Below are positions 3,101-20,560 of a stretch of 20,560 nt of DNA, one piece after another. Under the pieces are notes generated by a model, which was not told where the DNA came from, made no database searches, and saw only the letters and a list, made by a program, of their open reading frames with translations. This DNA comes from a virus. Every line of letters begins with the position of its first letter. Within the stretch, counting starts at the first letter, position 1. Position numbers and translations under genes: made by a program. The stretch is from positions 1 through 20,560 of IMG/VR virus record IMGVR_UViG_3300048065_000272; one strand, written 5' to 3'.

Positions 3101-3119
3101 AGTAGTCGTCCCTACTACT
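3101..3119 (-). other. Small hairpin with GGGACG loop at the end of the 742-residue gene
   Basis: Minus strand AGTAGT - AGGGACG - ACTACT: six perfect base pairs around a seven-base loop, overlapping the TAG stop of the upstream gene. It is followed on the minus strand by eight A residues, so it is not an ordinary intrinsic terminator for this transcript. The loop sequence recurs after the capsid and scaffold genes. It may be an RNA processing site or a protein-binding site; the function is unknown. Confidence 0.5.
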
Positions 3120-5343
3120 TATTGGGGTCATCGCTAAAGTTGGAGGCGTTTAATCCATACGAAGACGCACCTGGCGCACCAACAAGTTCATAGAAAGCGC
3201 GGTCAGAAATCGCCGTCCCTTGGTCTCTATAGGCTTGTGCCATTTGCATGACTACACTACTAAGCCAATCGGCTGGTGTATCGAATGGGCCGTTAGGTCT
3301 GATCCCGATAGTTGGGTCAGGGGTGAAGCCGTACACCATGTCTGTCTTATTGTTAATCCCAGAAAACGCCATCCGCATTTGCGTTGACGGGTTAAAGCCT
3401 TGCGGTCTGTTCGGGTTCGGGGTCATCGGCGGTAGCTGTCTGACCGAACTTTGAGAGACAGGAGTAAGGGAGCCAGACTTCTGATCGTATTTGTAGAATT
3501 TACCCACTGCCAGAGGCTCACCATTAGTGTCCTTGAATTGATCTGAACCATTAAGGGCTTTGTACGTATTGTTACTGCTTCCAAACAACTCAAGTGTTGG
3601 GTGTCTAATAACTGAAGGACGACCCGTACTGTTCTTGGGGTCAGCAAGTATCTGACTAACTTTTTCAAGAACTCTATTTGTTACCTCGTTATGCTTGGTG
3701 GTTATTTCAGACTCGGTTAAACCTCTGAAAGCTCCCTTGCTTTGCAAAGTTTTACGTAAGTCTAAGTCAATCTGGTTTACCAGAGCTTCTACGATCTGTT
3801 GCTTTTTAGCAATGACCTGTTCTTGGCTGTCTCCAAACTTCAATGTGGTAGTGAAGATTGTCTCAATTGCTTCCGCAAACTCTTTGTCGTAGGCTTCTTC
3901 TTGGTTAGAATAGTAAACCTCCAAGTCTGAACCTGGCGGGATAGCGTTAGTAGTGAACTCGGCTCTGACCTCCGCCTGAAATGCAACACTTGACTGTATC
4001 AATTTGGTAGCCACGAGGTAGTTCAGCATTTCACGAGCATCATCTACGGTTCCGCTCGTCAATTTATCCTCTCCGAACCTGGCCTTCAATTCACTTGCAA
4101 CACCAAAGGCATCTTTAGTCATAACGTAATTTGCGGCGACCTCTGTCATTACGGCAAACCCTGCGCCGCCTTCTGCAAACTCAGGCATGCCAGCAAGTGT
4201 ATCTACCCGTTTCTTAGCAAGCTCAAGTGCCGCTTCAACCTTTGAATCTATCTTGACTTGCTCTGCGTCCCACTCCGTCTGGTACTGAGTGCCTATAGCT
4301 CTCTCAGCGGCTTCTATCCATTTCTTGAACTCTGGGTCTTGAGCGTTGGCGGCGATAGGTAGGTCATAAGTTTCACGAGCCATGTTGTAGGCTTGAAGCA
4401 CATCTGCGTCGTCGTACCCTTTCGCCGCCACAGTTTTTGCAAACTCACTATCCTTTGAAAGAATGTGAGTGCTGAACTCTCTTTCGTTCAACTCTACTTT
4501 GGCAGAGTTTGCTTGAGATTGCCTTGTTAAGAGAGACGCTACAATGCTTGCATGCAAGGTTTTATATTCGTCGCTGTCTTTACCAAGGTTATACTTTGAC
4601 CCAGCAATTATTTCTGAAGCCAAGCTTCCGATTTGATCTTCACTCATGTGCCTTAGTTTTTCGCCGCTGTAGCCCACCACCAGCTTGCTTGCGTCGGCTG
4701 TGGCTGTAGCCGTCAGTTCGTCTTGCTTCCTTTGGATTTCTATACCAATCAAAGTTTGCTTCCATGATGGTACGCTGTTAGCGTCCATTATCTTTTCGGC
4801 AGTCGCAACATCATTTACGTTCTTCAACGGGCCATTCAAGTAATCTTGAACAGCTTGTGTTCTAATCTGGGCATGCTGTTCAGGAATGTTTTGAGAGCGG
4901 CGTTCCCACATTGACTCCGCCATTTCTGGTCTGTCTGGAAAACCCGCTATCCAGTCTTTCTTTAACTTGACAAGTTCTTTTTCGTCAGTGACATCAACAT
5001 TCGAGTGGTAGCCCAAAAAGCTATTCCAACTTTCATCAGCCTTTTTACGGTCTTCCATCACTTTCGCTTCTTCTGCGCCGCGAGTGTTCAAAGCCAGTAC
5101 GTTGTTTCTGTCAGCAAGTTCCTTCATCATCGCGCCAGAAGGTAGGTCGCGCAAAAAGAAAGCGTCGCCGCCAGCAAGACTCCGACGAAAACCGTCCAGT
5201 TCTTTTGCGGTTACATCTTCCCCCATAGAAGCCTTCATCTTGCGGTATGCTAAGAAGTCTTCTCTGTTCTTTTTGCGCTTGTCATAGATGCGATCTTCTT
5301 GTTTCGTGAACGCATCATTGGCTGACGTAAAAAACTTTGCCAT
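3115..5343 (-). CDS. Large helical internal virion protein, putative
   Basis: 742 residues, ATG start, ten bases after the preceding 307-residue gene, with only a weak AGG upstream. The protein is charged and almost wholly alpha-helical by eye, with no signal peptide or convincing membrane segment. The N-terminus (~1-35) is strongly basic and charged (DKRKKNREDFLAYRKMKAS). Long Glu/Ala/Lys-rich helices follow, and the C-terminal ~120 residues are Pro/Asn/Gly-rich and probably less ordered. I recognise no enzymatic motif. It sits between a coiled-coil 307-residue protein and a giant Gly/Ala-rich protein, an arrangement like the internal-protein block of T7-type phages (gp14, gp15, gp16). A role in the ejection channel is therefore a reasonable inference from position and size, but there is no sequence proof. 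Confidence 0.75.
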   Translation of the reverse strand: MAKFFTSANDAFTKQEDRIYDKRKKNREDFLAYRKMKASMGEDVTAKELDGFRRSLAGGDAFFLRDLPSGAMMKELADRNNVLALNTRGAEEAKVMEDRKKADESWNSFLGYHSNVDVTDEKELVKLKKDWIAGFPDRPEMAESMWERRSQNIPEQHAQIRTQAVQDYLNGPLKNVNDVATAEKIMDANSVPSWKQTLIGIEIQRKQDELTATATADASKLVVGYSGEKLRHMSEDQIGSLASEIIAGSKYNLGKDSDEYKTLHASIVASLLTRQSQANSAKVELNEREFSTHILSKDSEFAKTVAAKGYDDADVLQAYNMARETYDLPIAANAQDPEFKKWIEAAERAIGTQYQTEWDAEQVKIDSKVEAALELAKKRVDTLAGMPEFAEGGAGFAVMTEVAANYVMTKDAFGVASELKARFGEDKLTSGTVDDAREMLNYLVATKLIQSSVAFQAEVRAEFTTNAIPPGSDLEVYYSNQEEAYDKEFAEAIETIFTTTLKFGDSQEQVIAKKQQIVEALVNQIDLDLRKTLQSKGAFRGLTESEITTKHNEVTNRVLEKVSQILADPKNSTGRPSVIRHPTLELFGSSNNTYKALNGSDQFKDTNGEPLAVGKFYKYDQKSGSLTPVSQSSVRQLPPMTPNPNRPQGFNPSTQMRMAFSGINNKTDMVYGFTPDPTIGIRPNGPFDTPADWLSSVVMQMAQAYRDQGTAISDRAFYELVGAPGASSYGLNASNFSDDPNK

Positions 5344-5353
5344 ATTTGTTTAC

Positions 5354-6277
5354 CTATTTACCACTATTGGAAAGGCCAAGCCGTTCTATTCTTGCTTGTA
5401 GGTCATTTATTGTCTGTTGTTGTTCCGCAATTTTAACATCGTTAGGGTTTTCGTAATCACCCTTGCCAAGTAGGAAGTCCATGTTCCCACCATACTTTCC
5501 AAGGTTTGCACGAGCCGTTCCTTCACCCGCCATGCTGTCTTCAGCGGTTTCTCCAACTTCACTGCGATATTCGCCCGCAGATTGCGAAGCATTACTGTAA
5601 GCTGAACCCGCGTTCGTAGGCAGGACATCTCGAAGGTTATCAATCCCAGTCTGATATCCCGCGCCAATGTCTGCGTATACGTTTTTGCGCCCGTCCATAA
5701 GCGTTTGCTGGTTAGTCCCAACTCTGTTAATAGCGGCATTGTAAGCCTCCTGATCCATCTTACGAAGCTCACTAGCATAAGTCCGAGAAAGGTCTCTTTG
5801 TTCATCTCTAAACCTATCCGATCTGTCCATGCCTTTTGATATTGCGTCAGCAAATCCTGTTGAGCTAACCCTGTCTATTGTTTCGTTCAAGTCGTCTTGA
5901 TACATACCACGTATTTGCTGGTAATTTTGGTTTATGTCGTTCTGGGTAACTGCTGGAAGTTGCCCCATAGCCGCACGAGCCTGGTTGATGGCTTGTTCAA
6001 GCAATTGTGAACGGTTCACAATTCCACCACGAAGAGACTGCTCTTCAGCGGCTCGTCGTTGTGCCAACTGTAGCTGTTGATTAGTGATAGCCTGCTGACG
6101 AGCCAAAGCATCTTCGTAGGCACGACGATCTTCCTTGGCCCTTTTCTGGGCTTCGTAGTAATCGTAACCAGCGCCTACTGTTTGCGCCCACATGCCCGCT
6201 CTTGTAGGGTCTCCGTTGGCATCAGTACCGTACAGAGAGTTCAAACCCTGCCCTAAAAATTCACCAATCCCAGCCAT
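5354..6277 (-). CDS. Coiled-coil internal virion protein, gp14-like by position
   Basis: 307 residues. The ATG is preceded by AGGAGAAGACG, a strong ribosome binding site overlapping the stop of the upstream gene nine bases away. The first ~38 residues are Gly/Ala-rich and mildly hydrophobic (GIGEFLGQGLNSLYG, TVGAGYDYY). A long heptad-like Gln/Ala/Arg helix follows at ~40-105 (QAITNQQLQLAQRRAAEEQS), then further helices to ~190. A short C-terminal coiled coil lies at ~285-303 (EQQQTINDLQARIERLGL). A small N-terminal hydrophobic patch plus long helices, placed just before two much larger helical proteins, resembles the smallest ejection protein of T7-like phages. This is analogy by architecture and gene order, not demonstrated homology. 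Confidence 0.72.
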   Translation of the reverse strand: MAGIGEFLGQGLNSLYGTDANGDPTRAGMWAQTVGAGYDYYEAQKRAKEDRRAYEDALARQQAITNQQLQLAQRRAAEEQSLRGGIVNRSQLLEQAINQARAAMGQLPAVTQNDINQNYQQIRGMYQDDLNETIDRVSSTGFADAISKGMDRSDRFRDEQRDLSRTYASELRKMDQEAYNAAINRVGTNQQTLMDGRKNVYADIGAGYQTGIDNLRDVLPTNAGSAYSNASQSAGEYRSEVGETAEDSMAGEGTARANLGKYGGNMDFLLGKGDYENPNDVKIAEQQQTINDLQARIERLGLSNSGK

Positions 6278-6286
6278 CGTCTTCTC

Positions 6287-7081
6287 CTATAGATACTTCA
6301 TTCCGAAACCAGAACGGGCTGTTGTAAGGTTACGTGACAGCGGACCACGAGCCGTGTACATGGCTTGAGGGTCATTCGGAGAGAACGCAATGATCTGCTG
6401 TTGCCCCGTAGTTGGCAAAACATAGTTCACGTCTGGAACAACTGACTGACCTGGACCTAGTTGTGGAATGTTTGGGTCAATCTGTAAGTCAGACTGACTC
6501 TGACCAACTGGTGTTTCCGTTTGCTCCGCACCAGGAGGAGCCATGTTTTCTACAACTTGGTCGTTACCGCCCAATGCTCTTGCTCCGAACCCCTGCTGTC
6601 CTTCACCGATTTCTCCGCCAGGTGTAGCAGAACCCATCTGCTGTTGTACCATAGCATCTTCAGAAACCTCCGAAGAATACCCAGCACCTTGCCCTTTTAA
6701 GAACTGACCACGCTTGTTGTTGTCGAAAGGTGTCATGCCAGTTAATACTGTTTCGTCTCCAAGGATTTTGTTCTTTCCTAAGAACTCCTTGTCAGCACTA
6801 GGGTCTCCAACATCTCTACGCTCTCCTTCACGAAACTCAGTAGACTGAGCCTCACTAAGAAAGTTTGTGATGTATTTGTAGTTAGGCACGTTTGATGGGT
6901 TGCTAGAGCTTACTTGCGAACCTCTGGGGCGGTAATTACTGCCTCCATTGTCATCTCCACCATTGTTATCGTTCGGGCCTTTAGGCCCGCCCCATGAAAC
7001 AGTTTTATTGGTTCCCTCAACGTAGCCTTGTGGTGGCCCTTGTGCTGGCCCACTTGGACCGCTTGTTCCTGAATCGCCCAT
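6287..7081 (-). CDS. Low-complexity virion-module protein with C-terminal GFG motif
   Basis: 264 residues, ATG start with AAGGAGAAG eight bases upstream. Residues 1-60 are Gly/Pro/Asn/Ser-rich and look disordered (GPSGPAQGPPQG). The middle (~65-150) is charged, and ~150-245 is rich in Gln, Pro and Gly. An internal QGFGARALGG lies at ~164-172. The last residues read ARSGFGMKYL. The two other virion-module proteins encoded just upstream (670 and 425 residues) also end in a GFG motif after an arginine. I recognise no domain and can assign no function. Composition and position suggest a minor or internal virion component. The short shared C-terminus is the only specific clue. Confidence 0.7.
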   Translation of the reverse strand: MGDSGTSGPSGPAQGPPQGYVEGTNKTVSWGGPKGPNDNNGGDDNGGSNYRPRGSQVSSSNPSNVPNYKYITNFLSEAQSTEFREGERRDVGDPSADKEFLGKNKILGDETVLTGMTPFDNNKRGQFLKGQGAGYSSEVSEDAMVQQQMGSATPGGEIGEGQQGFGARALGGNDQVVENMAPPGAEQTETPVGQSQSDLQIDPNIPQLGPGQSVVPDVNYVLPTTGQQQIIAFSPNDPQAMYTARGPLSRNLTTARSGFGMKYL

Positions 7082-7092
7082 AATCTTCTCCT

Positions 7093-9105
7093 TTAGCCAA
7101 ACATAATTCCGTTACCAAACCCAGCGCGTCTTGCGCCTCGGTCTATTTCGTTCTTGCTCGCTGTTCTAAATGTAGCAGAACCGTAGTCTCTGTTCTTCCC
7201 TCGCGTCAACATGCCTGCCCCTATACCACGTAAGCCACCGCCGCGTGTAGAGGCAGGGCTGTTGTACGATATCGGGTTAAGGACATTAGAAGAACTGTTC
7301 TGCCCTTCGTTTATGATGTTTTGTATCTGATCTCCGATTAGCTTCCAACTGTCACCAGAATTGTCGTTGCTGTCGTTGCTGTTGGTAGAGTTGACAGACT
7401 GGTTGGAAACAGGGCTGACTGCCGAAACACCGTCTTTGTCGTTATATGTTGCGGCAGTATTTGATACGTTAGTAGTACCAGCCATAGAGGTTGTGTTGCT
7501 TGGGATGGAACCAGACTTATTGTTTGCGAAAGATGTGGAGTCCCCAGAGCTACCAGAAGTGTTTGAGTGGACTGAAAAGTTAGACGAACTTTTGTTGTCT
7601 AAACTTTTTTGAGCGGCAGATTCCACTTGATTAGATATGTCTGATTGCAAGTCAGCGGTAGCCGAACCTTTTGGAGCCGCGCCTTTGCCAGAAGGCGACG
7701 TATTATTAGGTCCGTTGATATCTCCAGTATCCAAAGAAATACTGCCGACATTGACAGTATGATCAACTCCCTGTTCTGCGAGAATACCCCTAATCTCTTG
7801 GTTCATCATATCTTGCACTTTACCAACAGTCGCGCCTGTGATTGCCAGGTTGTTAGTCGCACCATATACGCCCTTTGCAAGTGGTCCTAACGCTTTGCTC
7901 GTTACGGGGTCTACAAACTGTCCAATCACTGGACCCATTATGTCGTAGTTCACATTCATATTCGCTCCTTTTGGAGCGTTGGGGTCATAGCCTGGTTGCG
8001 TGTAGTCGTAACTAGAAAGCGGAGCCATTGTGTCAAAATTAAAGCCAGATATTGCCGCACCTAGTTTTGGGTTTCCTTTCACAGTAGCCAAAACACTAGC
8101 ACCAGTCTTTGCCAGATTAGCCGCATTTTGCCCGACGTTCTGCCAACCAGACTTAATGCCTAAGTTCCCTTGTGCGTCTAAGCCAAATACATCACCAAAC
8201 AATCCCTTGCCGACTTTGCCAGTCTTACCGAACACGTTGTACCCGATGCCTGGTGTTCCTGTCTCAGCGTTAAACCCTCTAGCCATAGCGTCTACTATTT
8301 CTTGCTGGGTCATGTCAGGGTTGTTGTTTAGAATGTCGTTGACGTTTGGTGGCCCCATGAAGCCAAAGTTGTAGCCGCCCTTCATCGCGCCTGCTACAGC
8401 AGTCCTTCTGCCAAAATCTTCCAGAGCGGCCATACGCTCTGATTTAGACAGGCCGCTGTCTACGATACCTGTTCCAATCAGAGCGAGTTGTACGTTCGTG
8501 CTGTCCATTGGTGCGTTTGGATCGTAACCATTGTCTATCATGGTTTGGATTCTGTCAGCCAGCTTGCCTGCCGCGTTGTTGTTTTCGTTAATGTCACGGG
8601 CTGTGTTTAGGTCTTGCTGTGCTTGGCTCAATGTGGTGGTCGTACTACCGTCAGGGTTCTGCGTAGTAATGTTACCCATCTCGTCAACTGTTTGGTTTTG
8701 CGTATTAGCGTAGTTCTGCCCTACAGTGTTTGCCCAACCGCTCCAAGAGTCGGCTTCGGCCTTGCCAGCCGCCACCGCGTCATCAGCGGCTGATGATTTG
8801 TTATCGCTACTGCTACTGCTATTAGGACTGTCTTGATCCATGCCGTCTTCTCGGCCACCGCCACCGCTAGGACCAGCGTTGTTGTTTCCGCTACCCTGTT
8901 GACCATCTGGACCAGCAGACTGGTCGCCGCCTGGCCCGCCGTAGTCGTCGCCTTCGTCGTAGTAAGCTGGAACACCATGCACAGGCTTACCAGCACCGCC
9001 AAGAGCTTTTAACAGGTTTGCTTCTTCTTGGTTAATGTAGGCAAGCATATGCGGTTGGCCGCGAACATTAGTACGCCGAGGCGGGGAAAAAGTTTTTCCG
9101 TTCAT
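7093..9105 (-). CDS. Large Gly/Ser/Asn-rich virion-module protein with C-terminal GFG motif
   Basis: 670 residues. The ATG overlaps the TGA of the GNAT-like gene by four bases (ATGA), indicating translational coupling. Near the N-terminus, residues ~19-50 contain LAYINQEEANLLKALGG followed by GVPAYYD. I recall similar motifs in uncharacterised marine phage virion proteins, but this is from memory. Residues ~50-110 are a disordered Gly/Asp/Ser tract. The centre (~165-450) is more ordered, with Gly-rich helical stretches and two YDPNAP copies (194-199, 373-378). Residues ~455-610 are a second Ser/Asn/Thr-rich tract. The end is RRAGFGNGIMFG, matching the C-termini of its neighbours. No enzyme motif is visible. 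An ejection-associated or internal virion role is inferred from context. Confidence 0.72.
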   Translation of the reverse strand: MNGKTFSPPRRTNVRGQPHMLAYINQEEANLLKALGGAGKPVHGVPAYYDEGDDYGGPGGDQSAGPDGQQGSGNNNAGPSGGGGREDGMDQDSPNSSSSSDNKSSAADDAVAAGKAEADSWSGWANTVGQNYANTQNQTVDEMGNITTQNPDGSTTTTLSQAQQDLNTARDINENNNAAGKLADRIQTMIDNGYDPNAPMDSTNVQLALIGTGIVDSGLSKSERMAALEDFGRRTAVAGAMKGGYNFGFMGPPNVNDILNNNPDMTQQEIVDAMARGFNAETGTPGIGYNVFGKTGKVGKGLFGDVFGLDAQGNLGIKSGWQNVGQNAANLAKTGASVLATVKGNPKLGAAISGFNFDTMAPLSSYDYTQPGYDPNAPKGANMNVNYDIMGPVIGQFVDPVTSKALGPLAKGVYGATNNLAITGATVGKVQDMMNQEIRGILAEQGVDHTVNVGSISLDTGDINGPNNTSPSGKGAAPKGSATADLQSDISNQVESAAQKSLDNKSSSNFSVHSNTSGSSGDSTSFANNKSGSIPSNTTSMAGTTNVSNTAATYNDKDGVSAVSPVSNQSVNSTNSNDSNDNSGDSWKLIGDQIQNIINEGQNSSSNVLNPISYNSPASTRGGGLRGIGAGMLTRGKNRDYGSATFRTASKNEIDRGARRAGFGNGIMFG

Positions 9106-9557
9106 TTTAGCGCCTTCCTATAACTAGAGCCTATCTTATGGTGTCCTAGCCTTTTCATAAAACCGTCCCACTTATCTCCTTGACCATGAGATGTAGGGGA
9201 AAAATACATAAGACTTGCGCCAACATCCATTGACCAAGCCTCCCAAGCCTTCATAAACTTAAATGCCGTTGAACCCCCCCTGTTCTCAGGGGACACATAC
9301 AAAATCTCTTCGATTGAACACACCTCGTCGCAGAAGTAAAAAGGTTCAGCTTTAGCAATAAAGATACCAAAAATCTTTTGAGAGGGTGAGTCTTCTGCAA
9401 CAAGCATAAGCTTGTTTCTGTCGCTGAGTCCTCGCATACACCAGTCGAGCATCTTCTCCTCTTCGTAGGGTAGCCAGTGAAAGTACGATGACTTGTGGAA
9501 CTGCTTACCCAAATTAACACAATACCCCACATCTTCTTCTTCCATAAACCTAATCAC
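9102..9557 (-). CDS. GNAT-fold N-acetyltransferase-like protein in the virion module
   Basis: 151 residues. I chose the GTG at 9557, which overlaps the upstream TGA (GTGA). It supplies the typical GNAT first strand (MIRFMEEEDVGYCVNLG) that a later ATG at 9545 would lose. Acetyltransferase features are a central strand pair (KLMLVAEDS, KIFGIFIAKAEPF, ~49-74), then EEILYVSPENRGGSTAFKFM at ~83-102. The last holds the P-x-x-R-G-G-S loop expected to bind the acetyl-CoA pyrophosphate. A helix, a strand (ASLMYFSP) and a C-terminal helix complete the fold. From memory, GNAT-like proteins lie among head and ejection genes of other podoviruses (T7 gp13 and P22 gp14 types). It may be a virion assembly factor rather than a metabolic enzyme. 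The substrate cannot be told. The four-base overlaps on both sides suggest coupled translation with its large neighbours. Confidence 0.75.
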   Translation of the reverse strand: MIRFMEEEDVGYCVNLGKQFHKSSYFHWLPYEEEKMLDWCMRGLSDRNKLMLVAEDSPSQKIFGIFIAKAEPFYFCDEVCSIEEILYVSPENRGGSTAFKFMKAWEAWSMDVGASLMYFSPTSHGQGDKWDGFMKRLGHHKIGSSYRKALK

Positions 9558-10831
9558 ATGTACAATACCTTGTTACCAAACCCATTCACATCAGACCGTC
9601 TACTCTGAGCAGATATGCTTCTCCCGAACGTAGGGCTATATTGAGGCCCGACTTCCTGATAAGAACTTCCGCCGTCTCTGTCGTCAATCTCTTCGAGATA
9701 CGTAACGCCAGCAGGCTTCTGCGTACCAGTATAAGCAGGAGGCGTAGCAGAGGGTAGAGTCATTGACAGATTAGCCTGTTGATTGCTTGCCCCATAAGGC
9801 ACGTTCTGAGAGTCCAGAATCTGCCCGTAGTCACTAGGCAAAGGGTTTGAAGGAGTGTAAGTAGGCTCTGGTCTGGGAGGCTCGTAGGCATTATAAGCAC
9901 CGTAAGCGCCAACAGCACCTGACAGTAGCTTTTCAGTCGTACTCAGAGGGTTTTCTTCACCCAAGCCAGAGAGACCGTAGCCTGCCGCACCCCCAAGCGC
10001 GGCTTGTAGTGCTTGGTCGGTGTCAGCGCCCGCCAACTTAGCCGCACCGTAAGAGCCTGCTCCTGCTAATCCCGCCTGCACTAGATCGTTTCCAAGAGGG
10101 TCTTCTACAAAATCGTCCCAGCTATTGCCGATGTCTTTAGCCGCATTGTCATATAAGTTGCTTGCGCCGTCTTTCACATTGTTCCAAAGCTCGACGTACC
10201 AAGGGTCGTTAAACTGCTGTGCGCCTGTGGCGCTGTTGTAGTTTCCTTGGTCACTACCTACTACATATTGATCTGGGTTCAGACCTGATTGAGCCATAGC
10301 CATTTGGACAGCCATAGCAAGTTCTGGGAAGTTTTGCTGAACCCTAACAGGCATGACCATCTCTCCGCTTTGAGAGTAAGTTAGAGAGTCGTCGCCACCT
10401 TCCATAGCTTTGTAGTGGTTGATGATGTCGTCAGCGTCTTTAATCTTTCCTAAACCGTCGTCACCGCTTTGCATGATGGCGTCACTGATAGTGCGGTTTT
10501 CGCGTATCTCTTTGAAGCGTTCTTGCTCCGCGTCTTTAAGCGCCTTAATCCTGCCACTGCTGTTGCCTTCTCTGTCTGGACCTATGGCGTCAAAGCCAAG
10601 ACCACCAAGGCCAGATGGCATTGATGGTATCTCGTCGTCGTGACCCTGTAACATACGGGTAATGATGGACATAGGTCCATAATCATCGAGGAACTCTCGA
10701 ACGCTGTAGCTATCCTCCAGCCGAGGCTGGCCGCTCATGGTGGTGTTCTTCCGCTCTTTAGGGTTAAGACATTTTCCCGCTGAAGAACAAGCACCAGGAG
10801 ATGGACAATCTGGACAAGTTGAGAATGGCAT
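9554..10831 (-). CDS. Virion-module protein with Cys-rich N-terminus and C-terminal GFG motif
   Basis: 425 residues. The ATG at 10831 has AAGGGG seven bases upstream. A later ATG (residue 32) has a weaker site and would remove the cysteines. The N-terminus has Cys at 6, 9, 15 and 21 (C-x2-C-x5-C-x5-C), a possible zinc or disulfide knuckle. Residues ~90-145 are charged and helical. Residues ~156-195 hold GEMVMPVRVQQNFPELAM and NPDQYVVGS, a pattern I recall from marine phage proteins of unknown function. Residues ~245-315 are a Gly/Ala-rich hydrophobic helical region (AGLAGAGSYGAAKLAGA) that could touch membranes. The rest is Pro/Ser/Tyr-rich, ending RRSDVNGFGNKVLYM. It starts ten bases after the tail fibre gene and overlaps the GNAT gene. 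A role in the ejection or internal virion set is likely but inferred. Confidence 0.72.
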   Translation of the reverse strand: MPFSTCPDCPSPGACSSAGKCLNPKERKNTTMSGQPRLEDSYSVREFLDDYGPMSIITRMLQGHDDEIPSMPSGLGGLGFDAIGPDREGNSSGRIKALKDAEQERFKEIRENRTISDAIMQSGDDGLGKIKDADDIINHYKAMEGGDDSLTYSQSGEMVMPVRVQQNFPELAMAVQMAMAQSGLNPDQYVVGSDQGNYNSATGAQQFNDPWYVELWNNVKDGASNLYDNAAKDIGNSWDDFVEDPLGNDLVQAGLAGAGSYGAAKLAGADTDQALQAALGGAAGYGLSGLGEENPLSTTEKLLSGAVGAYGAYNAYEPPRPEPTYTPSNPLPSDYGQILDSQNVPYGASNQQANLSMTLPSATPPAYTGTQKPAGVTYLEEIDDRDGGSSYQEVGPQYSPTFGRSISAQSRRSDVNGFGNKVLYM

Positions 10832-12683: not shown

Positions 12684-14597
12684 TTATCCTGTCCTCACTG
12701 TAACGGCAAAGCCGATTATTTTTAGAAGCCCCTTACCTCTTGTTGTAAACCGAAATTGCACACCACGATAACGATGCTCAAACTTCCTTTCGTACTGTCT
12801 ACTTAACGGAACATCAGGGAATTTGTCGTCCACCCCGCCATCTTCAATAAGGAACTGCATTGAAGACATGTATCTACCGCGCTCGTCAAAAGCCTCTACC
12901 TGTAACTCGCCCTTTCCAGTAGCTTGTAAGATAAAACTGTAGCTTTCTTTAATGTCGTTGATAGCACCCTGCCAAAGTATGGGGGTAGTTATGACCATTT
13001 CAGGGCTAAACTCTACGACTTCCTCTACCTTGTTCTGCTCCCAAACACCACCTGGCGTACCAAGCAGAGTTATTCCGCCCAATGTGTCACCACACCGCAC
13101 GTTTAAGAAGTCACCAGAAGACCACTTGCTTTCTCCACCAGCCATAGGATTGAGTGTGAGAGTAAGTCTCTTGGATATAAGGTCTGACAGAGGGAAGTAT
13201 ATGTGGTACTGCCCCTCGTCTGTGTCAAAGTACGCAGTGATCTGCTCAGTGTCAGGCACTGTACGAACAAACTCTCTGTAGAGAAGGTCGATTTTGTTGG
13301 ACATAGGTATGGTAAAGATAGTCACACCGTTTGTTTCAGAGCGACGAAGCGAGTGTACACCGTCTCTTGAGCAGAAAAGTAAGTCAGAACCAGCCTGACA
13401 AATGGTGTTATGAGATATAGTGCCTACTTTAATGTTAGCTTTGTCGTCAATTTGCCATAGTGTGTAGTCAGGGTGTAGCTGATAAACCAGCGTCTGATCG
13501 AATGTGAACACCGCAAGTCTTGAGTTCTCGAAAACTCCAAGACCCCGTATCTCATCAGCAGTACCAATGACGTTTGCCACGTCGATGTCGGAGCCTTGCG
13601 TGACCTGTACAGAAGCAGGGTCTTCGTCTAGCGTAAATATGTCTTCCTTATCCACTCGGCTAAAGTCAATAATCGTTCGTCGGCCTGGCTGTCCAGCAGT
13701 CGCAAGACGACGTTGGACTGCGACTACGTAGGCTGGACGCGGGTCGCTGTCAGCTTCAATCTGTTCAAACTTAAATCCATTGTAGGTGTACATAGGGTAG
13801 TCGCGTGACGCGAACACCACCTTATTATTGAATATCGTGGACGTAACAATGGCTGTCTGAGGATAAACCTCAAAAGCCTCGTGTCCGTTAGACTGAGGCT
13901 TCACATCTGTTCTGTTTGCATAAAAGTATAGGTCAGATGTTTGAGCCGCTACAAAGTCATCAAAGTAAGTTTCATCGCCAGCTTTTGTGCCAGATGACGT
14001 AACCGTAACTCTATTGAACACCTCGTCCACCGATACTTCTACCGTCGCAGGAGTGCCGCCATCATCCGTAGGCACTAGCAAGTTGCCGTTCTCTACGGCT
14101 ATGCGGAGTATGTAAACGGGAGTTCCTGTGGCATCATCGCCCCAAGCAAGACCTGTCATCAAAGGATAGTTAGGCACTTCTTCAAAAACGACATCGTAGT
14201 ACCTAAGTGTGCCAGTCGGTCTGATTACTCCTGAAGGATCGTCAATAACTGTTTTTGTGGCTGAGTCCCAATTTACTTCTATAGACCTCTGCGGGTTCTC
14301 AATAGCCCTTTCTGATTTCAGCGTTGTTCCCCCACCATCTTTCTGCGCCCAAACCGCAAGGTCTCGCCCGAAGAAGGTAACGTGCTTAACAACTGCATCG
14401 CCTTGAGTTCTTTGAGTTGCGCCTGGATCACGCACAATAGAACCCCTCCAATCGGCGTAACCGTTGGAGATGTTCAGCATGTGTTGCTTCTGACCAGTAT
14501 CTAAAGCGCCTTTGTCTCTTGACGCATCAATCCCTTGGAAATCTTCGTAGGGGTAAACCTTGGTCTTTACACCAGATGGAGCGTAGCTTGTTGACAT
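12684..14597 (-). CDS. Tail hub / nozzle-type protein (P22 gp10 or T7 gp12-like)
   Basis: 637 residues; the ATG has AGGAG upstream in CTAGGAGACGTTAATA, two bases after the previous stop. The N-terminus (YPYEDFQGIDASRD, then NGYADWRGSIVRDPGATQR, ~16-62) is the pattern expected where a beta-propeller tail protein opens. Repeated short strands follow: VVFASRDYPMYTYNGFKFEQ (~259-278), RPAYVVAVQRRLATAG (~287-302), IRGLGVFENSRLAVFTFDQT (~350-369) and LFCSRDGVHSLRR (~407-419). The C-terminal ~85 residues form a separate beta domain (ELQVEAFDERGRYMSSMQF to the end). This pattern matches the stabilisation/nozzle proteins below the connector of short-tailed phages. The position between a probable connector and the fibre agrees. 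The assignment rests on pattern and context. Confidence 0.75.
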   Translation of the reverse strand: MSTSYAPSGVKTKVYPYEDFQGIDASRDKGALDTGQKQHMLNISNGYADWRGSIVRDPGATQRTQGDAVVKHVTFFGRDLAVWAQKDGGGTTLKSERAIENPQRSIEVNWDSATKTVIDDPSGVIRPTGTLRYYDVVFEEVPNYPLMTGLAWGDDATGTPVYILRIAVENGNLLVPTDDGGTPATVEVSVDEVFNRVTVTSSGTKAGDETYFDDFVAAQTSDLYFYANRTDVKPQSNGHEAFEVYPQTAIVTSTIFNNKVVFASRDYPMYTYNGFKFEQIEADSDPRPAYVVAVQRRLATAGQPGRRTIIDFSRVDKEDIFTLDEDPASVQVTQGSDIDVANVIGTADEIRGLGVFENSRLAVFTFDQTLVYQLHPDYTLWQIDDKANIKVGTISHNTICQAGSDLLFCSRDGVHSLRRSETNGVTIFTIPMSNKIDLLYREFVRTVPDTEQITAYFDTDEGQYHIYFPLSDLISKRLTLTLNPMAGGESKWSSGDFLNVRCGDTLGGITLLGTPGGVWEQNKVEEVVEFSPEMVITTPILWQGAINDIKESYSFILQATGKGELQVEAFDERGRYMSSMQFLIEDGGVDDKFPDVPLSRQYERKFEHRYRGVQFRFTTRGKGLLKIIGFAVTVRTG

Positions 14598-14599
14598 TA

Positions 14600-15241
14600 T
14601 TAACGTCTCCTAGCGTCGTAACCCTGTGTTCCGTTAGGGGCTTGAGACCGATCCCAAGGCGACACTTCAATTTTTCCAGAACCGAATTTTCTTTGGTAAA
14701 GTATTCTGTTCATCATCTTGAAGTACATAGGGCCGTAAGCTTCGATCTTGTTAGACTGTTGCTGAACAGAGTAGTGGTACAGTAATCCAGACACAACGAT
14801 GCTGTCAGGTATGGGTCGCTGTTCAGAGGGGTGTGTGTAGTAATCTATCTCTGGGTTGTCCCAGTAAGAATGACCGCGTAAGTCTTCAATCACTAGGTTG
14901 GCAAACTCGACGAACATCATCATAACTTCGCCGTCGATTGTGCCAGGATGCATGTCGCCATAACGACGTAGAGCTTGGAACACAAGTGCCTCCAAGTTTG
15001 AGTATGGCTCAGAAAGGTGAGGGTTGTTTACAGAGTATCTGTTACGACCCTCCTTACCGTCCCAGTATTCACGCCACTTACCTTCAATGTCGTTCTTAGT
15101 GTTAGCGTCTAAAGTATCACGTAAATCTCTAGCACCAGGCATATCATCTCGACCAGTGCCAGGATCGTAATGCTTTACGTCCTCGTTTGCTGGTCTATCG
15201 CCTTTTATGTCGTCGTATAAACGTGGTACTTCAATAGCCAT
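14600..15241 (-). CDS. Putative head-tail connector/adaptor protein
   Basis: 213 residues, ATG start four bases after the stop of the 97-residue gene; there is no strong ribosome binding site, so coupled translation is likely. The protein is acidic and polar at the start (~1-60, rich in Asp/Lys/Arg). It has helices at ~80-125 (LEALVFQALRRYGDMHPG, MMMFVEFANLVIEDLRGH) and a helix-rich second half including SIVVSGLLYHYSVQQQSNK and MYFKMMNRILYQRKFG, ending in a basic tail DARRR. Size, helical make-up and location between the capsid genes and a large propeller-type tail protein are what one expects of a short-tailed phage connector (gp11 or gp4-like by role). I do not recognise a specific family, so the function is positional inference. 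It could instead be a minor virion protein. Confidence 0.65.
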   Translation of the reverse strand: MAIEVPRLYDDIKGDRPANEDVKHYDPGTGRDDMPGARDLRDTLDANTKNDIEGKWREYWDGKEGRNRYSVNNPHLSEPYSNLEALVFQALRRYGDMHPGTIDGEVMMMFVEFANLVIEDLRGHSYWDNPEIDYYTHPSEQRPIPDSIVVSGLLYHYSVQQQSNKIEAYGPMYFKMMNRILYQRKFGSGKIEVSPWDRSQAPNGTQGYDARRR

Positions 15242-18393: not shown

Positions 18394-18640
18394 TGAAGCG
18401 TGTCCATGCACCCACTGATATGATCCCCAGTATAACCAGAACAACCCACTTAACGAAGGTCGTGACAACAGATTTCTTTACTTCTCTCCAACCGTCAATA
18501 AGCTGGCGTAAGTCGTGTATGTCCTTGCCCGCGTCTTCGTCGTGCAATCCGATGCTTGCCAGAGCTTCTTTGGCTCCACGACGAGCGGAACGCTCGACGA
18601 GTTGCTCTAGCTCTAATTTTGTCATTGTTACTTGCGCCAT
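18386..18640 (-). CDS. Small single-helix membrane protein, holin candidate (DUF6127-like)
   Basis: 84 residues. The ATG overlaps the TAA of the RCC1-repeat gene by one base (TAATG), so translation is probably coupled. The N-terminal ~55 residues are charged and helical (LEQLVERSARRGAKEALASI, then DEDAGKDIHDLRQLIDGWRE). Residues ~62-80 form one clear membrane helix (FVKWVVLVILGIISVGAW), followed by four polar residues. The pattern of a charged N-terminal helix with E-A-L-x-x-I/V-G-L, D-L-R and W-R-x-x and a C-terminal membrane helix resembles DUF6127 proteins, which I recall from alphaproteobacteria and their phages. The size suits a holin or other lysis membrane protein. No endolysin is nearby, so lysis is only a candidate role. 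Confidence 0.7.
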   Translation of the reverse strand: MAQVTMTKLELEQLVERSARRGAKEALASIGLHDEDAGKDIHDLRQLIDGWREVKKSVVTTFVKWVVLVILGIISVGAWTRFND

Positions 18641-20560
18641 TAGAAAAGCAACTGAACTGGAGCGTAGCGAGAATAGTTTTCGTTGCCTATAGAATAGGCC
18701 GCGCTATATCCCCAAGTGTAAGCGTTGCCGTCCTCGGTCAACGCTATGCCAGTCATTTCGCTACTGTAGCCATACCCCGCAATATCAATAACCTCTTTAG
18801 TTATAGGCAAACAACTATATACACCACTGTTAGATATATTAGCCGCCCCCCCGTAGCCCAATGTGCCTTGAGCGCCGTACCCCCAACAAATCACTTCGCC
18901 GTCATCAGTCAAAGCAAAGAAAGCATTTGCAGAGCCACCTCCAGAATTTACTATTCTTTTGATATTGCTTGGAAATGCAGGATACCCAGTCGGACCGAAA
19001 TCACCACCCCATTGAACTGTCGGGTTGTTGGCAGGAATACTGGCATAAGTAAATGTGAGAGATGTGTTACCGTTCAGATTTTGCCCGTAACCATTATAGC
19101 CTGTAGCGTACAAAACCCCGCCCGCGTCTCTGGCGATAGAGTTATTGTAGTTGTCTTGAGACATTGCCGCACAAACTTCACATATCGTTGTATCGCCGTT
19201 GGCGTTGCTGTTGGTCATAACAATGGCTGGAGCAAAGTTTCCAGCCGCACCTCGGCCAAGAGCGCCAGAGTATGAGGAACTGTTGTCCTGTCCAAATGTC
19301 CATAAGTCGCCGTTAATATCTCTAATCCAAGCACCTTTACCAGTGGTCCAAAGTATTTCTGCCGCAGGCACGTTGATAGCAACGTCAGTGTAGTTACTGT
19401 TGTTGCTGTTGCTGGCAGGGTTCTGACCGCTGGTATAATGACCAGAGTACCCGCAGTGATAAACAGTGCCATCTTTTCCTAGAGCGATAGCGAAACTTCC
19501 GTCCTGTGAGCCAGCCCAGAGATCAACAAACTCGTCTAGGGAAGTGGTTTGGTAATTACCAAGTTGTGGGCTTGCCTGAACAAAGATAGATGTATCGCCA
19601 GTGCTACCATCACCCCGCGCACCGTAGCCACCGTCGCCAGCGTAGTGGACAGTTCCGTCGTCACAAAGCGCCCAAATGCCGTTGTAAGTAGAAACGCTTG
19701 TACCGCTCTGCCCAATAACAGTCTTGATTACGTTTTTGCCGTATATAGAGTTTGGAGAATGTGCGCTTGCGTTAAACGGAACGTATTGGTCAGTGGTTGA
19801 ACCTTGACCACATTGGCCTTGGTGGTTACGTCCCCAACACCACATGTTGTAGTTTCTGTCCACACAAGTAGCAGTGGTTTGGTAGTTAAACTGGAAGTAC
19901 CAACCCTTGTCTTCATAGTCATACACAAAACCGTTTGTGTTAAGAGTTATGGTGTTTCCAGCAGAGACTGCTGTAGTAGACCCCACATATCGGTACATGT
20001 CGGTTTCGTCGTCAGCGATACGGATGTAAGTAATACGGTCTGTGCCAGCGGTTAGACCAGGTGCTGTGTAAACACTTGTCTTCTTTCTGTCCCCAATGTC
20101 AGCAAGAGTGAGCGCAGTCCAAGTTGTGCCGCCGTCTGTGCTTTCTTCAAAGGTTAAGTCTTCTGTGTTTGTGCTGTCAGTCTGGTCGAACTTGTAAATG
20201 TTACCCTTAGTCATGTCGATATTAGGGTTGTCTGTTCCGTCGATCACGAAGATAGGGTCGCCGTTAGTGTCAGTTGACATCGTGACTGCATGCGTAACTG
20301 TGCGTTTGTTACGGTTTACTAGCTTGCGCTCGGAAAGCTTTACACCAGGGAAACCCGCAGGGAAAGCGGCATTTGTTGGGTTTGCGCGGTCGTTAGTCTG
20401 AGAGCCAATACCTTGTTGGTAATAGACGTTATGTCCCCAACCACGGTATGCGCCATCTTCCATGATAACAGCACAGTACCTGTAAGTATGGGTGTTGCCG
20501 CTAGGAAGGTTAGCGACACGGACGTTAGAACGCTGATCGTCGGCAGTCCAAACAGGGAGA
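18640..20560 (-). CDS. RCC1-repeat (beta-propeller) virion protein, 5' end beyond the window
   Basis: The frame stays open from the stop at 18642 to the right edge. The ATG at 20463 is therefore probably internal, since 32 coherent residues precede it (PVWTADDQRSNVRVANLPSG and so on). Counting from that ATG, residues ~58-160 form a beta domain with FVIDGTDNPNIDMTKGNIYKFDQ, the pattern of cupredoxin-like modules in marine phage structural proteins, but the usual Cys/His/Met ligand end is replaced by MYRYVG. Seven RCC1-like repeats follow at about 205-222, 264-287, 329-347, 383-404, 446-466, 519-538 and 574-594. Each has a D-G-x-V/L-x-x-x-G or CWG/TFG core (MWCWGRNHQGQCGQG, VICWGYGAQGTLGYGG). 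Seven repeats match one complete RCC1 propeller. An appendage or receptor-binding role is inferred from position and architecture. Confidence 0.82.
   Translation of the reverse strand, partial: LPVWTADDQRSNVRVANLPSGNTHTYRYCAVIMEDGAYRGWGHNVYYQQGIGSQTNDRANPTNAAFPAGFPGVKLSERKLVNRNKRTVTHAVTMSTDTNGDPIFVIDGTDNPNIDMTKGNIYKFDQTDSTNTEDLTFEESTDGGTTWTALTLADIGDRKKTSVYTAPGLTAGTDRITYIRIADDETDMYRYVGSTTAVSAGNTITLNTNGFVYDYEDKGWYFQFNYQTTATCVDRNYNMWCWGRNHQGQCGQGSTTDQYVPFNASAHSPNSIYGKNVIKTVIGQSGTSVSTYNGIWALCDDGTVHYAGDGGYGARGDGSTGDTSIFVQASPQLGNYQTTSLDEFVDLWAGSQDGSFAIALGKDGTVYHCGYSGHYTSGQNPASNSNNSNYTDVAINVPAAEILWTTGKGAWIRDINGDLWTFGQDNSSSYSGALGRGAAGNFAPAIVMTNSNANGDTTICEVCAAMSQDNYNNSIARDAGGVLYATGYNGYGQNLNGNTSLTFTYASIPANNPTVQWGGDFGPTGYPAFPSNIKRIVNSGGGSANAFFALTDDGEVICWGYGAQGTLGYGGAANISNSGVYSCLPITKEVIDIAGYGYSSEMTGIALTEDGNAYTWGYSAAYSIGNENYSRYAPVQLLF

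Follow-up and report, generated by a model that had tools for sequence, protein, structure and literature searches.

Gene layout of the window

The DNA analysed here, referred to throughout as the window, is a virus record of 20,560 bases and a contig of an uncultivated CRP-810-type marine podophage. Its capsid protein is 61.6% identical to that of Roseobacter phage CRP-810 and its nozzle 51.3% identical, and the two genomes have matching gene order, so that capsid, nozzle and gene order all agree with placement in this group; a marine phage family with CRP-810 as its type has been described (PMC11288001). The genes lie on the minus strand in the order RCC1-like protein, two small proteins, scaffold-position protein, major capsid protein, a 101-residue protein, adaptor, nozzle, fibre, slot A, GNAT-family protein, slot B, slot C, a 307-residue protein, a 742-residue protein and the start of a giant protein. 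The RCC1-like repeats of the first, 607-residue protein (18640-20463, minus strand), upstream of the scaffold-position gene, were recognised by eye.

The head-tail adaptor candidate (14600..15241) is assigned by gene order and is conserved in relatives. It is followed by a 637-residue protein (12684..14597), the putative nozzle of the P22 gp10 / T7 gp12 type, whose CRP-810 homologue is annotated as a stabilization protein. Slots A (425 residues; 9554..10831), B (670 residues; 7093..9105) and C (264 residues; 6287..7081) encode the proteins with which this study is concerned. Between slots A and B lies a GNAT-family protein (9102..9557) matching the acetyltransferase family phrog_1249, and some relatives have two tandem GNAT-family genes here (L037/L038, L052, L061, L066, L071, L084). 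The last three genes, for the 307-residue protein (5354..6277), the 742-residue protein (3115..5343) and the N-terminal part of a giant protein that is cut by the contig end (2..3040; about 3,750-4,120 residues in relatives), are ordered as T7 gp14, gp15 and gp16. These three position roles, and that of gp13 for the GNAT-family protein, are suggested by gene order.

A glycine-aromatic tail on three neighbouring proteins

Inspection of the minus-strand reading frames showed that the three slot proteins end as the sequence-only reading had claimed, with RRSDVNGFGNKVLYM in slot A (9557..9601), RRAGFGNGIMFG in slot B (7096..7131) and ARSGFGMKYL in slot C (6290..6319), and that the 307-, 742- and 613-residue neighbours lack the motif. 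The 12 bases GGGTTTGGTAAC are indeed common to the slot A and slot B genes, in frame. An arginine precedes GFG in all three proteins as proposed, at variable spacing (RRSDVN-GFG in slot A); and the motif, described as sitting at the extreme C-terminus, is near the end and not strictly terminal, with 1 to 10 residues following GxG in relatives. With this range and no alternating pattern after GxG, an outer-membrane beta-signal was rejected by eye.

Shuffling of each window protein gave chance probabilities of 0.0007, 0.0011 and 0.0020 for a terminal [RK]...GFG. The tails are basic and the bodies acidic, with mean net charges of +2.7 to +4.1 per 25 residues for the tails versus -0.84 to -1.30 for the bodies. 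Gly, Ser and Asn are abundant in the slot B and C bodies.

Conservation and selection among relatives

IMG/VR scans using the 670-, 264- and 425-residue proteins and the adaptor as queries yielded about a hundred loci, and removal of near-duplicates left 28 proteins for slot A, 25 for slot B and 21 for slot C. Among these non-redundant homologues, G[FWYILV]G occurs at the C-terminal end in 26/28, 16/25 and 19/21 proteins of slots A, B and C, respectively, and a stricter form, for which a basic residue and one of F, W or Y are required, in 20/28, 10/25 and 19/21. Both glycines of GFG are among the 13 invariant residues of the slot A alignment (27 sequences), and Arg256 and Gly258 are among the six invariant residues of slot C (21 sequences); slot B is looser, ending in GIG, GLG, GYG, FGD or GLND, or having lost the motif. 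In distant pairs the similarity of the whole tail exceeds that of the body only modestly, and the conserved part consists of the GFG core and the arginines. On the nozzle tree, GFG-type slot A ends are spread over the main branches.

In the contigs of 12 relatives, the strict motif was found in 22/34 slot proteins versus 9/515 other genes (Fisher p = 8e-24, a value that overstates independence because the 12 contigs are related). The nine exceptions comprise four terminases (KGWGEL/V), four giant proteins and one partial slot B. The motif is thus retained in homologues of the three proteins and seldom seen at the C-terminus of other proteins from these genomes, and it is not a product of chance. 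The cultured relative CRP-810 has no recognisable slots A and C, and the end of its gp39 is merely GFS-like.

Related ends were seen elsewhere in these genomes. The giant gp16-position protein (contigs G001, G002, G005, G009, G011, G012) often has a Gly/Phe-rich basic end, such as SSGFGSSGFGKDGF, and in other relatives ends in SSSFGGTFD, DPFGGDPFK or KRDSNW; because GFG is not kept in all relatives, this end was not counted as the motif. The large terminase ends in FKGWGEL/V or FKNWGEL (G003, G004, G005, G006, G007), and in NWRGWGL in CRP-810 (L010, 1087-2706), ends reminiscent of the GWG tails on slots A and B of locus L087. The gp14-position protein of cyanophage P-SSP7 (L139, 25955-26557) ends in GGQSGFGWWGG, possibly a chance resemblance.

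Selection was evaluated at the codon level. The GFG codons take 14 forms among slot A relatives, 5 in slot B and 10 in slot C, and because they vary freely, the 12-base identity is coincidental and sharing at the DNA level is ruled out. In each slot, non-synonymous changes make up a smaller share in the 22 C-terminal residues than in the body (p = 0.008, 9e-9 and 0.002 for A, B and C, approximate values since pairs were pooled and share sequences). Free codon variation, together with the smaller change of tails than bodies at the protein level, indicates that selection acts on the peptide, preserving it throughout the phage family as the remainder of each protein diverged.

The tail as a module

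Alignment of the slot profiles with hhalign placed the top match at the C-terminus for each of the three pairs, strongly for A-B (E = 3.6e-6 over 43 columns) and weakly for A-C and B-C (E about 0.01), and the C-terminus appears to be the only notable similarity between the slots. The columns shared by A and B include a GVxYxxxVxDRDTGxxxY segment, which corresponds to a hairpin in the structure predicted for slot A. Within genomes, tail scores averaged 28.8 for A-B and 25.7 for A-C versus about 17.6 for shuffled sequences, with B-C less elevated.

In two relatives (L087 and L094), slot B is occupied by a different, unrelated protein of 150 or 171 residues with an A-like tail. For the L087 protein, a small search aligned the last 21 residues to the slot A tail with a 52% match (E 0.016), and the tails of both slots in that locus contain GWG. 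In a sister family, whose nozzle is 37% identical, the tail is carried by one of two proteins at the same place, which ends with AFSQ and a PRF..GFG..IRL block. These substitutions and the sister-family tail show that the tail behaves as a module, which may predate the family.

The opposite end of slot B also recurs. Its first 63 residues (GQPHMLAYINQEEANLLKALGGAGKPVHGVPAYYDEGDDY) are found on otherwise different proteins of other phages and resemble GRFGDTLLAHINPQEAALLK in the sister family; several such N-termini adjoin a portal-like gene (L004-L009).

Predicted structures and searches of known families

AlphaFold2 prediction of slot A from 27 sequences gave a mean pLDDT of 59, with the tail below 50. 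The tail is thus not predicted to fold alone, as expected for a linear peptide that orders on binding; low pLDDT by itself is no proof of disorder. The 637-residue protein was also poorly modelled (pLDDT 50), and in a fold search with the model the 12 best matches were all phage tail complexes, P22 gp10 and the T7 entry 9jyz among them; because the TM-scores were low, the nozzle assignment rests on the consistency of these matches and on gene order. Its best-modelled part (pLDDT 80-90) is an insert of about 140 residues, at residues 98-240 approximately, that is absent from the 496-residue nozzles of other lineages.

Searches for known counterparts gave little. In a phage collection of named isolates, no meaningful match was found for the 670-, 307- and 742-residue proteins or for the slot A tail and body domain, the latter as a consensus. 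The listed virion proteins of four capsid relatives (Mel-JY34, Kuura, VS-ABTNL-3, PaMx41) carry no GFG tail, with the exception of a 367-residue Kuura protein before the capsid gene that ends in NNGFG. Pfam and PHROGs searches of slot A and a PHROGs search of slot C gave no clear family, and a PDB sequence search with nozzle and adaptor profiles gave no match. The tail is absent from those parts of the CRP-810 family description that were consulted (PMC11288001), and text searches and family libraries, with subscription literature thinly covered, returned no earlier description.

Comparison with T7 gp7.3

The closest precedent for the GFG tails is T7 gp7.3, a disordered virion protein. By cryo-EM (PDB 9jyz), residues 84-98 alone of gp7.3 are ordered, in six copies, each anchored to a neighbouring pair of gp12 nozzle subunits where nozzle and adaptor meet, and the remaining chain is attributed to density along the channel DNA (PMC11784390). 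Like the GFG-tail proteins, gp7.3 is of a disordered type and has a conserved Gly-rich C-terminal peptide with a basic start and an aliphatic end, and this end is kept while the body diverges: KKSLSVARS[SA]GGG[IL]NI is found in T7, Ebrios and an Erwinia phage, with differing bodies. However, there is no significant sequence match between gp7.3 and the slot proteins. By eye, ARSGFGMKYL of slot C and ARSSGGGINI of gp7.3 have A-R-S and one G in register, too little for homology. The body of gp7.3 (99 residues in all) is basic, whereas the slot proteins (264-670 residues) have acidic bodies; its gene is upstream of the portal, whereas the slots lie between the fibre and gp14-position genes; and, unlike gp7.3, the tails here are on up to three proteins at once.

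Proposed role of the tail and alternative explanations

The sequence-only reading had suggested a packaging or docking tag read by a common partner such as the portal, connector or ejection complex. A docking tag is the best-supported class of explanation; the gp7.3 precedent, however, points to the nozzle-adaptor junction, in the same channel, rather than to the portal or connector. We favour, tentatively and by analogy, a reading in which the GFG tail is a linear docking peptide that anchors disordered plug or ejection proteins in the portal-nozzle channel; the tail probably pins floppy virion-module proteins inside the phage DNA channel. On up to three largely disordered proteins of a podophage ejection or plug module, presumably incorporated into the virion, the arginines and the G-F-G-x-x-hydrophobic end would bind a single conserved site of the portal-tail channel, the best candidate being the groove that neighbouring nozzle subunits form where nozzle and adaptor meet. 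What is left of each chain, acidic and of low complexity, would sit in the channel or head and would exit with the DNA at infection.

Nozzle docking is supported by the conservation of the tail in all three slots, its specificity to the module, its lower non-synonymous share, the C-terminal profile matches, the unrelated slot B proteins and sister-family protein that carry it, the basic tails on acidic bodies, the low pLDDT of the slot A tail, and a nozzle identified by fold and gene order, as well as by the gp7.3 precedent. Against it stand the slight sequence similarity to gp7.3 and the acidic bodies, the loss of the motif from slot B in several lineages, and the lack of slots A and C in CRP-810. 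Co-drift of tails within genomes, as with a genome-specific partner, was also looked for among the relatives and none was seen; this absence speaks neither for nor against a partner that changes slowly, the nozzle for example.

The main rival, possible but distinctly less probable, is a head-cargo signal, in which the tail would bind the portal barrel, core or capsid interior at assembly and bring proteins into the procapsid. Encapsulin cargo-loading peptides provide the likeness: one short C-terminal peptide, on several unrelated proteins, is read by one shell protein. The GFG tail could by analogy be such a loading tag, and differs from these peptides in sequence and context. Also in favour of head cargo, an M[CG] start, found in 12/17 slot B and 18/20 slot C proteins versus 8% background (slot B of the window starts MN), recalls T7 gp14 and gp6.7, of which gp6.7 binds the portal barrel (PMC11784390). 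T7 gp6.7 shares the M-C start of many slot B and C relatives and a low-complexity body, and has an FGG stretch in its C-terminus (KSSIRKSAFGGKK); it differs in length (88 residues) and gene position. The part of gp6.7 that is resolved on the portal barrel, however, is its N-terminal loop, its C-terminus not being resolved in the structure, and the resolved C-terminal anchor in T7, that of gp7.3, is on the nozzle (PMC11784390). Because sequence, charge and gene position differ, the slot proteins were not filed as members of either gp7.3 or gp6.7.

It is unlikely that the basic-aromatic tail has some other local role, in contact with packaged DNA, at the host membrane or in self-assembly. Its positive charge would suit such a role, and lysines beside the anchored loop of gp7.3 contact DNA (PMC11784390), but a non-specific charge contact would not fix two glycines and an aromatic residue. 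More improbable still is shared ancestry only, in which the genes would have come to share a C-terminal segment by duplication and would retain it with no partner in common. A remnant of tandem duplication had been offered as an alternative at the outset, and the copying part of it survives: since A and B share about 43 C-terminal columns, including the hairpin-like segment, copying of the tail module is probable. The tail is no remnant in decay, however, because in every slot it has changed less than the body and is under stronger constraint. The unrelated slot B proteins of L087 and L094, moreover, carry the tail alone. Coincidence in glycine-rich proteins, to which the composition of the slot B and C bodies might have lent itself, is refuted by the low per-protein chance and the family-wide conservation.

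Implications

A broader and rather doubtful reading is that a modular virion targeting code may exist, in which a transferable C-terminal GFG tag, in this uncultivated marine family and a sister family, would send a number of unrelated disordered proteins to a single site of the portal-tail channel, the terminase (KGWGEL) and the giant ejection-type protein using related ends.

The conserved tail provides a handle for finding such proteins in uncultivated phages and offers a testable prediction of a docking site. It also suggests that several cargo proteins can share a single site in the channel.
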